Source: Christiangramia sp.
Lineage (GTDB): Bacteria > Bacteroidota > Bacteroidia > Flavobacteriales > Flavobacteriaceae
Assembly (NCBI RefSeq): GCF_029937855.1
Contig: NZ_JAPYPC010000002.1
Coordinates: 62,001-126,000 of the forward strand
DNA: 64,000 nucleotides
Direction: 5' to 3'
The position numbers and the translations under genes were made by a program. The notes below the pieces were generated by a model. The model ran no database searches and was not told the DNA's origin. It was given only the letters and a program-made list of their open reading frames with translations. Below, piece after piece: positions 53,274 through 58,345 of this stretch; position 1 is the first letter of the stretch, and each line of letters opens with the position of its first letter.

Positions 53274-54203
53274 ATGGAAATACTTGTTTATGGAATCGGA
53301 GGTGTAGGGGGTTATTTTGGCGGAAACCTGGCCAATGCAGGATTCAATGTAAGTATGATAGCCAGGGGGCAGCATTTAAAGCAGATCCAAAAACACGGAC
53401 TTAAAGTTGATAGCATTAAAGGTGATTTTAAGGTAATACCTAAAGTTGCGACTTCAGAAGTTTCTGAAGTTCCAAAACCAGATCTTATTATTCTCGGAAT
53501 TAAATCCTGGCAGATTCCATCTGTCGCTGCTGAAATAAAACCGATAATGGGAGAAAATACAGTTGTGCTTCCATTGCAAAATGGCGCTGATAATTACGAG
53601 AAATTAATAGAAATATTACCAAAGGAAAATGTGCTCGCGGGTCTTTGTTTCATTGTAAGTTTTATAGAAAAACCAGGTAAAATAAAACATGCGGCTTATG
53701 AACCAAAGATCATGTTTGGGGAAGTTGATAATTCAAAGTCAGATCGAGTAATGAAAATTCATGATATTCTTAATGAGGCGGGAATTGAAAATAATATTCC
53801 GGATAATATTCAGCTGGAGATTTGGAAAAAGTTCCTCTTTATTTGTACCATTAGTGGTATTGGCGGTCTCACTCGTGTACCCATAAATAAGATCAGGGAA
53901 AGTGAATTCCTTTACGAAATGATGAGAAAATCGGCTAAGGAGATTATTGAAGTGGGCAAGGCAAAAGGTGTTCCGTTTACCAATGAACATTTAGAAATGG
54001 TATTCGAGATCATTAATGGGCAACCCGAAGGAACTACCGCTTCCACACAAAGGGATATCATGAATGGCAAAGCTTCAGAATTGGGAAATTTCAATGGATT
54101 TATCGTTAAGGAAGGAGAAAAGTTAGGTATTGAAACTCCAGTGAACAGGTATATCCATGAGTGCCTGAAACCTATGGAAGCCGCCGCCCGAAAATCAAAG
54201 TAA
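53274..54203 (+). CDS. 2-dehydropantoate 2-reductase (ketopantoate reductase) family protein
   Basis: A 309-residue NADPH-dependent reductase. The nucleotide site is VYGIGGVGGYFGGNLANAGF (residues 4-23), with VVLPLQNGADN near 100 and a catalytic-type Lys near LEIWKKFLFICTIS (about 186). The family reduces ketopantoate to pantoate for CoA synthesis, but many paralogues exist and no pantothenate gene adjoins, so panE is not asserted. Confidence 0.85.
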   Translation: MEILVYGIGGVGGYFGGNLANAGFNVSMIARGQHLKQIQKHGLKVDSIKGDFKVIPKVATSEVSEVPKPDLIILGIKSWQIPSVAAEIKPIMGENTVVLPLQNGADNYEKLIEILPKENVLAGLCFIVSFIEKPGKIKHAAYEPKIMFGEVDNSKSDRVMKIHDILNEAGIENNIPDNIQLEIWKKFLFICTISGIGGLTRVPINKIRESEFLYEMMRKSAKEIIEVGKAKGVPFTNEHLEMVFEIINGQPEGTTASTQRDIMNGKASELGNFNGFIVKEGEKLGIETPVNRYIHECLKPMEAAARKSK

Positions 54204-54242
54204 TAGAACTTCCAATCCTTCCCTATAAGTCTTTTAAAATTG

Positions 54243-54250
54243 TATTTTTG
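54243..54250 (+). promoter_or_regulatory. Putative leuS promoter box (TATTTTTG)
   Basis: TATTTTTG matches TAnnTTTG. If used, it gives leuS an untranslated leader of about 120 bases that contains the 74-bp repeat element. Confidence 0.5.
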
Positions 54251-54269
54251 CAGGCAATTAGTGATTAAC

Positions 54270-54343
54270 GTCACTGCGAAGGAGGGAAACTACTGAAGTA
54301 GCCTCAGGGAATAAAGAGATTGCGTCGCTACGCTCGCAATGAC
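54270..54343. repeat. REP-like 74-bp element in the leuS leader
   Basis: GTCACTGCGA at the left and TCGCAATGAC at the right are 10-bp inverted ends with one mismatch. The interior contains CTACTGAAGTAG (a small hairpin) and GCGTCGCTACGCTCGC. The same pattern is a common dispersed palindrome in Bacteroidetes genomes (family memory, not a search). The ORF-track start for leuS (54320) lies inside it. Confidence 0.65.
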
Positions 54344-54376
54344 TCCTATGATAATTGGATAATAGTAAGACAGAAA

Positions 54377-57300
54377 ATGAGTTACCACTTTAATAAGATC
54401 GAAAAAAAATGGCAGAAATACTGGGCAGAAAACCAGACATTCAAGGCACAAAACCCTCCGCTTTCGGGGGAGATGGAGGGGGCTCCGAAATATTACGTGT
54501 TGGACATGTTTCCTTATCCTTCGGGGGCGGGCCTACATGTTGGGCATCCGTTAGGTTATATCGCCAGTGATATCTATGCAAGGTTTAAACGTCACAAAGG
54601 TTTTAACGTGTTGCATCCCCAGGGTTATGATAGTTTCGGACTTCCGGCGGAGCAATACGCCATTCAAACCGGTCAGCATCCTGCGGTAACTACTGAAAAT
54701 AATATCGCCCGTTATCGGGAGCAGTTAGATAAGATCGGTTTTTCGTTTGACTGGAGTCGGGAAGTGAGAACTAGCGAGCCGGATTATTATAAGTGGACGC
54801 AATGGATCTTTATTCAGCTTTTTGAAAGCTGGTATGATAGAGAAACGGAGAAGTCCCGCCCGATATCCGAACTTGAAGCTGTTTTTTCTTCGGAAGGTAA
54901 CTCGAGGATAAATGCTGCATGTGATGATGATGTGGAGCAATTTTCAGCTGAAGAATGGAATAAATACTCTCAGGACGAGAAAGAGCAGATCCTGTTAAAA
55001 TACCGTTTGACATACCTCGCGGAAGCTGAAGTCAACTGGTGTCCACAACTTGGAACTGTTTTAGCGAACGATGAGATCGTAAATGGTGTTTCGGAACGTG
55101 GAGGATATCCTGTTGTAAGAAAGAAAATGACGCAATGGAGCATGCGAATTTCTGCGTTTGCCGAAAGACTGCTTCAGGATCTAAATAAAATCGACTGGAC
55201 AGAAAGTTTAAAGGAGAGTCAGCGAAACTGGATAGGGAAATCTGTAGGAGCGATGGTTGAATTCCCCATCCTATCCTTCCCCGAGGGGGAAGAGAAAACA
55301 GAACCGGGATATATGACTGGTGGTAATAATTCTCATTTACTACTTGAAAAAGCCAGGGAAAACAGGAATAATCCCACTGATGCTGAAAAGTTGTTATGGA
55401 ATAATTTAAGAAATAGGAACTTAGGTTATAAATTTCGGCAGCAACATTTAATTGATCATTTTATTGTTGATTTCGTGTGTCTCTCCAAAAGATTGGTTGT
55501 TGAAGTTGATGGAACTATTCATGATTCCCAGGTTCAGGAAGATAGGGAGCGGACACAAATAATTGAGCGCAAAGGATTCAAGGTTATTAGGTTTAGAGAT
55601 GAAGAGGTTATTGGGGATATTGAGGCGGTTCTGGAGAAAATAAAAATAAATCTTTCTAAACAACCTACTGCCACTCAAAATTCACATGAAACTCCCCCTT
55701 CGGTGGCCGGGGGGATTAAGGTTTTCACCACCCGTCCAGATACCATTTTTGGGGTTACTTTTCTAACGCTTGCCCCGGAGCATGACCTGGTGAAAGAAAT
55801 AACAACTGCCGGGCAACGTGAAGAGGTCGAGGCTTATATACAAGCCAGTGCAAAACGAAGTGAACGTGAGCGTATGGCTGATGTTAAAACCATTAGTGGC
55901 GTATTTACCGGTGCTTATGCCGAACATCCTTTCACTAAGGAACCAGTGCCAATCTGGATTGGGGATTATGTACTTGCAGGTTACGGAACCGGAGCGGTAA
56001 TGGCTGTTCCATGTGGTGACCAGCGGGATCATGATTTCGCAAGACATTTCGATTTGCCAATTACTAATATTTTTGAAAATGTAGATGTTTCTCAGGAAGC
56101 CTATGCGGGTAAAGAAGGCACGGTAATCGCAAATTCAGATTTCCTTAGCGGACTAGAATATAAAGAAGCACTGAATAAAGTGATCCTGGAACTTGAAAAA
56201 ACCGGCCAGGGTTATGGAAAGACTAATTACAGGCTTAGAGATGCGGTGTTTAGCCGACAAAGATATTGGGGGGAGCCCTTCCCGGTATATTACGTGAATG
56301 GTCTGCCTAAAACGATAGACCTTGAGCATCTCCCTTTAAGATTGCCTGAAGTGGAGAAATATCTTCCAACTGAAACCGGGGAGCCGCCATTAGGTAATGC
56401 TACCGATTGGGCCTGGGATACCCAGAAAAATGAAGTAGTTTCAAATGATAAGATTGACGATAAAACGGTCTTCCCATTAGAGCTGAATACCATGCCGGGG
56501 TGGGCAGGAAGCAGCTGGTACCTTTTCAGGTATATGGATGCCGGGAACCCTGACCGCTTTGTTTCCGAAGAAGCCCAGAAATACTGGGAAAATGTAGATT
56601 TGTATATTGGCGGAAGCGAGCATGCCACGGGGCACCTTTTATATTCCCGTTTCTGGACTAAATTTTTACATGACCGCGGGTGGTTGACTGTCGAAGAGCC
56701 CTTCAAAAAGCTGATCAACCAGGGGATGATCCTTGGGACCAGTGCTTTTGTGTACCGACTGGAAGGAGAAAATGTGTTTGTTTCCAAAAATCAGATCAAA
56801 GGAAATAGCGTTCAGCCAATACATGCTGATGTTTCTTTAATTAATTCATCAAATGAACTGGATATCGATGGCTTTAAAAAATGGCGACCAGAATTTGCCG
56901 ATGCCAAATTTGTTTTAGATAATGGAGAAGTTTACGATGCCAACTCCTCTCCTTCGGGGAGGCCGGATGGGGCTTACATTGTTGGTAGGGAAGTGGAGAA
57001 AATGTCTAAATCCAAATATAACGTGGTAAATCCTGATGAGATCTGCCATGATTATGGAGCAGATACTTTAAGAATGTATGAAATGTTCCTGGGGCCGCTG
57101 GAGCAGGCGAAACCCTGGAATACTGCGGGAATCACCGGAGTGCATAATTTCCTAAAAAAGTTTTGGAAATTATATCATTCCGGCCCGGAAGGCTCGTTTT
57201 ATGTTGAAGATTCCCAGGCTTCGGAGAGGATAGAAGGGGGGCTTAAAACCTTGCATAAAACCATCAAAAAGGTGACCGAGGATATTGAGAATTTCAGCTT

Positions 57301-57694
57301 TAATACTTCTGTGTCCACTTTTATGATCTGCGTAAATGAGTTAACCGCGCAGAAATGTAATAGCAGAGAGGTTCTTGAACCGCTTGTGATCTTAATTGCG
57401 CCTTACGCTCCTCACATAGCGGAAGAACTATGGGAGAGATTAGGCCATTCGGAATCTATTACTACCGCAAAATATCCAGAATTTGAGGAAAAATATCTGG
57501 TGGAAAGTGTAAAGAATTATCCTGTTTCTTTTAATGGGAAGATGAGGTTTACGATGGAGCTGCCGTTAGATATGAGTAAAGATGAAATAGAGAAGACTGT
57601 CCTGGCAGATGAGCGGACGCAAAAACAACTGGATGGACGTACTCCTAAAAAAGTAATCGTAGTGCCTGGAAAAATTGTGAATATTGTAGGCTAA
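54377..57694 (+). CDS. leuS: Leucyl-tRNA synthetase with an inserted DUF559 nuclease domain
   Basis: A 1105-residue class I synthetase; usual length in the phylum is about 920-950. The catalytic motifs are intact: the HIGH-type motif in GAGLHVGHPLGY (near residue 55) and KMSKS in VEKMSKSKYNVV (near 875). The CP1 editing domain has its Thr-rich motif FTTRPDTIFG (near 448) and the conserved Asp region VPCGDQRDHDFA (near 545). About 150 extra residues (roughly 297-446) lie between VGAMVEFP and KVFTTRPD and hold a DUF559 domain. Two smaller in-frame inserts (NPPLSGEMEG, near residue 28; ANSSPSGRPDG, near 858) come from the same palindromic element. The start is MSYHFNKIEKKWQKYW; the 19-codon-longer ORF begins inside an upstream repeat. 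Confidence 0.97.
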   Translation: MSYHFNKIEKKWQKYWAENQTFKAQNPPLSGEMEGAPKYYVLDMFPYPSGAGLHVGHPLGYIASDIYARFKRHKGFNVLHPQGYDSFGLPAEQYAIQTGQHPAVTTENNIARYREQLDKIGFSFDWSREVRTSEPDYYKWTQWIFIQLFESWYDRETEKSRPISELEAVFSSEGNSRINAACDDDVEQFSAEEWNKYSQDEKEQILLKYRLTYLAEAEVNWCPQLGTVLANDEIVNGVSERGGYPVVRKKMTQWSMRISAFAERLLQDLNKIDWTESLKESQRNWIGKSVGAMVEFPILSFPEGEEKTEPGYMTGGNNSHLLLEKARENRNNPTDAEKLLWNNLRNRNLGYKFRQQHLIDHFIVDFVCLSKRLVVEVDGTIHDSQVQEDRERTQIIERKGFKVIRFRDEEVIGDIEAVLEKIKINLSKQPTATQNSHETPPSVAGGIKVFTTRPDTIFGVTFLTLAPEHDLVKEITTAGQREEVEAYIQASAKRSERERMADVKTISGVFTGAYAEHPFTKEPVPIWIGDYVLAGYGTGAVMAVPCGDQRDHDFARHFDLPITNIFENVDVSQEAYAGKEGTVIANSDFLSGLEYKEALNKVILELEKTGQGYGKTNYRLRDAVFSRQRYWGEPFPVYYVNGLPKTIDLEHLPLRLPEVEKYLPTETGEPPLGNATDWAWDTQKNEVVSNDKIDDKTVFPLELNTMPGWAGSSWYLFRYMDAGNPDRFVSEEAQKYWENVDLYIGGSEHATGHLLYSRFWTKFLHDRGWLTVEEPFKKLINQGMILGTSAFVYRLEGENVFVSKNQIKGNSVQPIHADVSLINSSNELDIDGFKKWRPEFADAKFVLDNGEVYDANSSPSGRPDGAYIVGREVEKMSKSKYNVVNPDEICHDYGADTLRMYEMFLGPLEQAKPWNTAGITGVHNFLKKFWKLYHSGPEGSFYVEDSQASERIEGGLKTLHKTIKKVTEDIENFSFNTSVSTFMICVNELTAQKCNSREVLEPLVILIAPYAPHIAEELWERLGHSESITTAKYPEFEEKYLVESVKNYPVSFNGKMRFTMELPLDMSKDEIEKTVLADERTQKQLDGRTPKKVIVVPGKIVNIVG
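54452..54482 (+). repeat. GC-rich palindromic element, copy A (in frame in leuS)
   Basis: Begins AACCCTCCGCTTTCGGGGGA and ends in ATGGAGGGGG. CCTCCG pairs with CGGGGG around CTTT. Translated as NPPLSGEMEGA in a variable N-terminal linker of LeuRS. Same orientation and layout as copies C and D. Confidence 0.7.
55264..55294 (-). repeat. GC-rich palindromic element, copy B (inverted; left boundary of the DUF559 cassette)
   Basis: Begins CCCCATCCTATCCTTCCCCG. CTTCCCC pairs with GGGGAAG around GAG. Read on the minus strand it aligns with copies C and D (CCCCCTCGGGGAAGG...GGATGGGG). Translated here as FPILSFPEGEE. Confidence 0.7.
55690..55714 (+). repeat. GC-rich palindromic element, copy C (right boundary of the DUF559 cassette)
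   Basis: AACTCCCCCTTCGGTGGCCG then GGGGG. CCCCC pairs with GGGGG. Translated as TPPSVAGG. Strongly similar to copy D (AACTCC...CTTCGG...GGCCGG...GGGG) and inverted relative to copy B. Confidence 0.7.
56942..56972 (+). repeat. GC-rich palindromic element, copy D (in frame in leuS)
   Basis: Begins AACTCCTCTCCTTCGGGGAG and ends GGCCGGATGGGG. CTCTCC pairs with GGGGAG around TTC. Translated as NSSPSGRPDGA just before the KMSKS region, at a surface loop position in a typical LeuRS. Confidence 0.7.
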
Positions 57695-57722
57695 GCTTAT
57701 ATAACAAATAAATATCCAAAAG

Positions 57723-57749
57723 CCACTTTCGAAAGGGAGTGGTTTTTTT
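57723..57749 (+). terminator. Rho-independent terminator after leuS
   Basis: CCACTTTC and GGGAGTGG form an 8-bp stem (two G-T pairs) with a GAAA tetraloop, followed by seven T. Confidence 0.85.
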
Positions 57750-57759
57750 ATTGATTATC

Positions 57760-57790
57760 GTCATGCTGAACTCATTTCAGCATCTCTTGT
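57760..57790 (+). repeat. Dispersed hairpin repeat, copy 2 (GTCATGCTGAACTCATTTCAG)
   Basis: ATGCTGAA pairs perfectly with TTCAGCAT around CTCAT. Compared with copy 1 (22690) the stem bases C/G have become G/C on both sides, preserving pairing. Lies between the leuS terminator and the rimM stop. Confidence 0.65.
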
Positions 57791-57817
57791 AGATAAAATT
57801 GAGATGAGGAGAGGTAG

Positions 57818-58345
57818 CTAATCCAAATAAAGGTCAATCAAGCCTTCAGGAGTGATTACTTTGATCTCTTTATTTTTTTTGTCTACTTTTTCAATGAATT
57901 CGTCATTCATGGGAATCAGTATCTGCTTTCCGTCTTTTTCAATTTCGAATAAAGCCTGGGCAGTAGAATCATTGATGGAAACTAATTTCCCAATATTGCC
58001 ATGTTCCGTATCGATCACATCAAAACCAATGATCTCGTGGAAATAGAATTTATCCTCAGACAGTTCGGGAAGCATGGTCAAAGGCAGGTATACTTCAGCG
58101 CCAATCATATCTTCTGCATCTTCTTCTGTATCGATATCTTCAAATTTAGCACGTAATAAGGTGCTTTTATGCAGATAGGATCTTTCAATAAAAAATGGAA
58201 CCAGGTTTTCGTTGTATTCAACAAAAACTGATTCCATTTCTGTGTAAGTTTCAGGTTCATCGGTGTCCAGTTTAATGAGCACCTCTCCCTTAAAGCTAAA
58301 TTTCCCTACGATTCTTCCCAGGTAGAAGCATTCTTCCTTAGTCAT
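57818..58345 (-). CDS. rimM: Ribosome maturation factor RimM
   Basis: A 175-residue 30S maturation factor that binds S19 and assists 16S rRNA 3'-domain folding. The N-terminal beta-barrel starts CFYLGRIVGKFSFKGEVLIK; the PRC-barrel-like C-terminal half includes FYFHEIIGFDVIDTEHGNIGKL. It follows rpsP by 14 bases on the same strand, a widespread order. trmD is not adjacent here. Confidence 0.95.
   Translation of the reverse strand: MTKEECFYLGRIVGKFSFKGEVLIKLDTDEPETYTEMESVFVEYNENLVPFFIERSYLHKSTLLRAKFEDIDTEEDAEDMIGAEVYLPLTMLPELSEDKFYFHEIIGFDVIDTEHGNIGKLVSINDSTAQALFEIEKDGKQILIPMNDEFIEKVDKKNKEIKVITPEGLIDLYLD

Follow-up and report, generated by a model that had tools for sequence, protein, structure and literature searches.

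Introduction

Palindromic selfish DNA and nuclease genes are each known to settle in unusual places. Rickettsia palindromic elements (RPE) lie within a wide range of unrelated protein-coding genes, in frame, and remain part of the encoded protein (PMC10969869), and REPIN/RAYT systems combine inverted pairs of repetitive extragenic palindromic (REP) sequences, an autonomous gene-bearing form and short non-autonomous doublets and singlets (PMC3116915, PMC8266576). Nucleases of related fold include the EDxHD/Vsr-type homing endonuclease I-Bth0305I (structure 3r3p; PMC3943268) and stand-alone DUF559/Vsr-like endonucleases (structure 3hrl of NGO0050; Caulobacter VsrA, PMC12907096). Here we analyse the leucyl-tRNA synthetase (LeuRS) gene leuS in a 64,000-nucleotide stretch of a Christiangramia sp. 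genome (contig NZ_JAPYPC010000002.1; hereafter the window), in which a DUF559 nuclease domain stands in frame between two palindromic hairpins. We consider it probable that this insert is a copy of a REP-bounded mobile element, spread by its EDxHD/Vsr-like nuclease and tolerated as a tethered domain.

Compared by description, the element resembles RPE in that palindromic selfish DNA has entered numerous unrelated genes in frame and is retained in the protein. RPE, however, measure ~150 bp and contribute a peptide only, whereas the palindromes of the present element enclose a nuclease gene and occur in a different phylum. REPIN/RAYT systems share the inverted REP pairs and the coexistence of gene-bearing and short forms, but the enzyme here appears to be a PD-(D/E)xK-like nuclease of EDxHD/Vsr type and not an HUH Y1 transposase, the element lies inside coding genes, and its REP sequence is unlike the RAYT-linked one of the same genome. 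With I-Bth0305I it has in common the catalytic fold, sequence similarity and an allele-linked, patchy distribution; in contrast, it has no intron, intein or other splicing element, is bounded by REP hairpins and occupies many unrelated hosts. Stand-alone DUF559 enzymes belong to the same Pfam family and fold but are free proteins, while the embedded copies group in a clade of their own and have a Y-x-T motif and linkers encoded by REP sequences. Inteins that contain a nested homing endonuclease also place a nuclease domain in frame inside conserved housekeeping proteins; unlike inteins, the element lacks a splicing domain, replaces host residues and leaves its linkers in place. Each component has a precedent (RPE, REPIN/RAYT, EDxHD homing nucleases), but no known family has all its defining features matched here, and a search of open-access literature did not bring up the combination. 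That literature contained no description of DUF559 insertion in Bacteroidetes or of in-frame palindromes there, and its LeuRS papers were silent on a nuclease insert, in agreement with a first-pass annotation of the window that knew of no published nuclease in LeuRS.

Results

leuS is a single open frame on the forward strand, from the ATG at 54377 to the stop at 57694, and encodes 1105 amino acids. The product is LeuRS from end to end (TIGR00396 leuS_bact, 904 bits against a cut-off of 548), and no second leuS was found in the window's genome in a search at E 1e-50. The first-pass annotation, made from the letters alone, had described an uninterrupted leuS frame with about 150 extra residues at the entry to the CP1 editing domain and a complete DUF559 domain with nuclease residues; our comparisons bear out each of these points. 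Alignment with 21 empty LeuRS of the genus placed the insert after ...GAMVEF and before VFTTRPDT, corresponding to LeuRS residues 297-448 (55265..55720, forward strand). It is no clean addition, since a loop of the KIKDTDHKVG type (~10 residues) was replaced and 154 residues now separate anchors that are otherwise 12 residues apart. Within the insert, Pfam recognized DUF559 (PF04480) at residues 324-425 (55346..55651, forward strand; E 4e-33, 114 bits against a cut-off of 20.6). The nuclease gene has no start or stop codon of its own.

The CP1 hinge was readable in 24 of 25 genomes of the genus. A short loop was found in 21 of them (12-29 residues between NWIGKSxGAxV and VFTTRPDT), and the other three, namely the window's genome, G220 and G208, carried about 155-160 residues with DUF559. 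The element is thus patchily present at a fixed site in homologous alleles, as is typical of homing-type elements. These sister genomes dispose of two objections that the first-pass annotation had itself raised, that the residues are a normal LeuRS segment or that the assembly is faulty. An assembly artefact is excluded because inserts of this kind are present in a sister assembly (G220) as well as in dozens of unrelated ones.

Missed in the first-pass annotation were the palindromic borders of the insert and two further in-frame palindromes in leuS. The border DNA reads ttccccatcctatccttccccgagggggaagag on the left and actcccccttcggtggccggggggatt on the right, both palindromic C/G hairpins. 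At the left end (55262..55296, forward strand), a REP-like tail and hairpin (tccttcccc gag ggggaaga) are read as FPILSFPEGEE. The right end (55692..55717, forward strand) is a REP-like hairpin and tail, inverted relative to the left and read as PPSVAGG; its stem is slightly decayed in the window's copy (ggtgg) and intact in the sister L034. Both ends are found again in other hosts, where the right-hand sequence is the reverse complement of the left-hand one, with a C-rich tail before the left hairpin and a G-rich tail after the right one. The translated linkers recur as well (FPKGEE or PTLSKGEG on the left, PPSGARG or LPSGEGxGE on the right).

Among 96 embedded elements, the best hairpins had median energies of -7.5 (left) and -7.6 kcal/mol (right), with z<-2 in 50% and 42% of cases. 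Control segments gave -3.5 kcal/mol in the DUF559 core (4% with z<-2) and -3.8 and -4.4 kcal/mol in the host (6% and 8%). Comparing the left end with the reverse-complemented right end outscored both direct and shuffled comparisons. The embedded elements therefore end in inverted repeats like transposons and miniature inverted-repeat transposable elements, and the ends are inverted REP hairpin pairs in several copies, as in REPINs.

The two solo palindromes of leuS are located near the LeuRS N-terminus (54454..54486, forward strand, read as PPLSGEMEGAP) and before KMSKS (56944..56973, forward strand, NSSPSGRPDG). In an alignment with 20 other LeuRS, the first was absent from all but one and the second from all. 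Both are palindromic in-frame inserts in a protein gene, as RPE are.

In 60 embedded elements, T18, E41, W45, R58, D69, F70, E80, D82, G83, H86, D93, R96 and F110 (insert numbering) were invariant, among them E337, D365, E376, D378, H382 and D389 in LeuRS numbering. Judged from the sequence, the invariant E, D, H and D probably represent the EDxHD motif of Vsr-type nucleases. The nearest solved structures by fold and profile were the DUF559 protein 3hrl (NGO0050; Foldseek 1.1e-6) and the catalytic domain of I-Bth0305I (3r3p; 6e-5). The insert is under purifying selection (dN/dS 0.09-0.29) and evolves faster than LeuRS at the protein level. A model of the insert had a core pLDDT of about 95 with floppy linkers, and in a model of full LeuRS (mean pLDDT 72, built from only 21 sequences) the domain is predicted to be tethered via disordered segments at 302-316 and 432-444.

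Scanning the genome collection with LeuRS inserts as query gave 560 relatives, 80 of which were retrieved; most of these lie within long host frames. The search for other proteins with internal DUF559 that the first-pass annotation had proposed yielded at least eight hosts besides LeuRS, confirmed by Pfam: MetH, a UvrD/RecB-like helicase, IleRS, RecG, RecJ, PurL, acetyl-CoA synthetase (Acs) and methylmalonyl-CoA mutase (MCM). Within each host gene, insertions recurred at a single site or at a few. LeuRS has three, at the CP1 hinge, at a second site in Prevotella and at a third before ELTTMPGWAGSSWY. The annotation had taken the domain for a silent passenger or part of a bifunctional enzyme. 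A tolerated extra domain agrees with our data, but a one-off does not, as the insert belongs to a widespread mobile element that occupies many housekeeping genes and has entered LeuRS repeatedly, at different sites.

The embedded subfamily is mostly confined to Bacteroidota; outside the phylum, it occupies the same CP1 position in two candidate-phylum LeuRS (L149 and L155). These two come from metagenome bins (Staskawiczbacteria, Paceibacterota), so that the assignment of their contigs is provisional. In a survey of the phylum, DUF559 matching the embedded profile at 1e-15 was present in 162 of 396 Bacteroidota genomes, many copies being stand-alone. Our counts are of loci and not of independent events, since some loci belong to the same species.

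In the window's genome, metH (L001) also carries the insert, and REP-like repeats enclose a single stand-alone DUF559 copy. Near-perfect inverted repeats also flank other free copies (L236, and L238 of genome G254 with about 31 bp), and L210 is a free copy of embedded-type DUF559. Genome G381 harbours four DUF559 copies with the same ends, one within a helicase gene. Near-identical copies within one genome were not found in the genomes checked, the best pair (in G381) being 61% identical.

In a tree of 110 DUF559 domains, embedded copies and a few others were separated from the majority of stand-alone and HemD-fused domains. The inserts of most host genes formed clades (starred for MetH, RecJ and MCM, weaker for RecG and the helicase). 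The helicase clade was nested within the LeuRS inserts, and these were scattered, with the candidate-phylum ones beside RecJ and Acs and those of Flammeovirgaceae near MCM. A single clade of all LeuRS inserts was rejected by the approximately unbiased (AU) test (p 0.0041). Between G208 and the window the inserts were 48% identical and the host proteins 89%, and the insert tree placed the G208 insert away from that of the window.

The clearest transfer was seen between L086 and L088, from two species of Dokdonia. Here insert dS was 0.057 compared with 0.73-0.93 for the host leuS, and identity was 98-100% inside the insert and about 87% outside (P about 2e-18). Mismatches restarted at the outer edges of both hairpins, and in this one pair there was no co-conversion of flanking sequence. 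Most other pairs likewise had a lower dS in the insert than in the host; base-composition effects could contribute to this difference. Movement of the element between host genes and between leuS alleles is well supported by these data.

The REP motif occurred about nine times in the window's genome (reversed control: 0). REP pairs without DUF559 were found between genes at L058, L062 and L067 and singlets in coding frames at L059 and L061. Among 201 Flavobacteriaceae genomes, at least three REP copies were present in 12 of 22 with embedded DUF559, in 5 of 43 with only other DUF559 and in 2 of 136 without; the thresholds used, 3 and 6, were chosen to soften the contribution of the embedded copies' own ends. 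The enzyme associated with these REPs is DUF559 and not, as in REPIN/RAYT systems, a Y1 (HUH) transposase. The window's genome has two Y1_Tnp genes. The RAYT-type one (L158, G000:C59:203454) adjoins another palindrome (gctggtgYgcgattgtatcgcgttc), and a C/G-run hairpin was not found near either of them.

Several further observations concern the hinge and other palindromes. L040, L041, L042 and L054 are sister-species loci with a short insert at the same leuS CP1 hinge, and in three of them this is clearly another palindromic repeat (...GAGACCCTGAAACAAGTTCAGGGTGAC..., read as GETLKQVQGD). The LeuRS hinge is therefore a hot spot for palindromes of different families. In L156, a LeuRS from Prevotella, the CP1 hinge contains a solo peptide encoded by a REP sequence, and the DUF559 element is in another loop. 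Around leuS of the window, attgcgtcgctacgctcgcaatgac upstream (54318-54345) and gtcatgctgaactcatttcagcatct downstream (57760-57790) apparently represent two further repeat families. The convergent intergenic site of L058 carried different palindromic families, or none, across the species of the genus (L167-L183); in the sister genomes it was too diverged for a duplication or the exact integration point to be read. Another DUF559 clade (L007, L013, L018, L024, L025) is fused N-terminally to a HemD-like protein (uroporphyrinogen-III synthase), again with REP-coded linkers, and in L012 DUF559 is located at the C-terminus of a HisD-like protein.

Discussion

We propose that the nuclease domain, made within the LeuRS chain on flexible linkers, would cut DNA at the hairpin ends and/or at the empty target, and that repair of the break would copy the element in. 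DUF559 would then act on its own ends or target and drive movement. Short REP doublets with the same ends but without DUF559 would be passengers mobilized in trans, and solo palindromes the remnants of such doublets. The copies that survive would be those in frame and in a surface loop, with the host enzyme still working. The protein presumably keeps the DUF559 domain unspliced, and persistence in essential genes without splicing may be possible because the hairpins are read as soft Pro/Ser/Gly/Glu linkers.

The main rival to a REP-bounded mobile element is strict homing, in which an unspliced endonuclease cuts the insert-free allele of its host gene, homologous repair copies the insert, and the palindromes are tolerated linkers or leftovers of recombination. 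The recurrent site per gene, the patchy presence beside empty alleles, the low insert dS in most pairs and the match to I-Bth0305I by sequence and fold are all as homing predicts, and the clades specific to MetH, RecJ, RecG and the helicase imply that inheritance is mostly within one gene, as in homing or vertical descent. We nevertheless regard strict homing as unlikely. The tract shared by the Dokdonia alleles stops at the hairpins with no co-conversion of flanking leuS, the element has moved between unrelated genes, different hosts and free copies share its inverted hairpin ends, REP doublets have the same ends without DUF559, and the insert shows no sign of an additional DNA-binding domain. 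Less probable again is that a RAYT or other enzyme mobilizes the REPs and that DUF559 is cargo caught between two of them. The movement of REPs and REPINs is attributed to RAYT transposases (PMC3116915), and the window's genome has its two Y1_Tnp genes, but the palindrome beside the RAYT-type gene is a different one, and we rejected RAYT-driven REPs on that ground; neither Y1_Tnp gene has the C/G-run hairpin nearby, and REP copy number tracks DUF559. Idle cargo would also not be expected to keep its catalytic residues invariant in 60 elements from ten hosts.

Purifying selection, an intact active site and a domain predicted to fold independently on flexible linkers would also suit a bifunctional LeuRS-DUF559 kept for the benefit of the cell, e.g. 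in stress or phage defence. This we consider very improbable, as the insert is missing in 21 of the 24 genus genomes resolved at the site, occurs in about ten functionally unrelated hosts and evolves faster at the protein level than LeuRS. The partly degraded right-end stem of the window's copy is the only hint of a decayed passenger or assembly artefact, which the open frame, the invariant catalytic residues and the same insert in the sister assembly make next to impossible. Simple domain fusion is ruled out by the hairpin borders, the same unit in about ten hosts and transfer confined to that unit. Pfam and NCBIfam scans gave no intein or Hint match, and an Rfam search of positions 54000-58000 was empty at E values up to 1, ruling out an intein and a group I or II intron. 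For carriage by phage or plasmid there were only distant plasmid DUF559 relatives (all <60% identity) and two weak phage matches.

Several observations weigh against a REP-bounded mobile element as the preferred explanation, besides the host-specific clades mentioned above. Sharply bounded transfer is clear in the Dokdonia case, the RecG and RecJ pairs being weaker, and grouping of the three genus inserts is compatible with the data (AU p 0.145). REP copy number is low in the window's genome, and the variant searched for is absent from some genomes with embedded DUF559. The co-occurrence counts ignore kinship and include the ends of the embedded copies themselves. Target-site duplication and the exact integration chemistry could not be read, the sister sites being too diverged and the loop replaced. 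We see an even chance that these are mobile elements of a new class, with a DUF559 nuclease of EDxHD/Vsr type that acts on REP-like ends, with non-autonomous REPINs of their own and with a specialization in living in frame and unspliced inside essential proteins, where the palindromic ends serve as translated linkers.

No nuclease is reported for the in-frame palindromes of Rickettsia in the review PMC10969869, whereas here a nuclease gene lies between the palindromes. REP dissemination is still called poorly understood, and the element predicts a non-HUH enzyme for REP-like DNA. Close relatives in this lineage allow its presence or absence and its transfer to be traced. Our findings show that essential proteins such as LeuRS, IleRS, MetH and RecG can accommodate an entire nuclease domain within a loop. 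This bears on annotation, on insertion-tolerant sites for protein engineering and on the persistence of selfish DNA without splicing.

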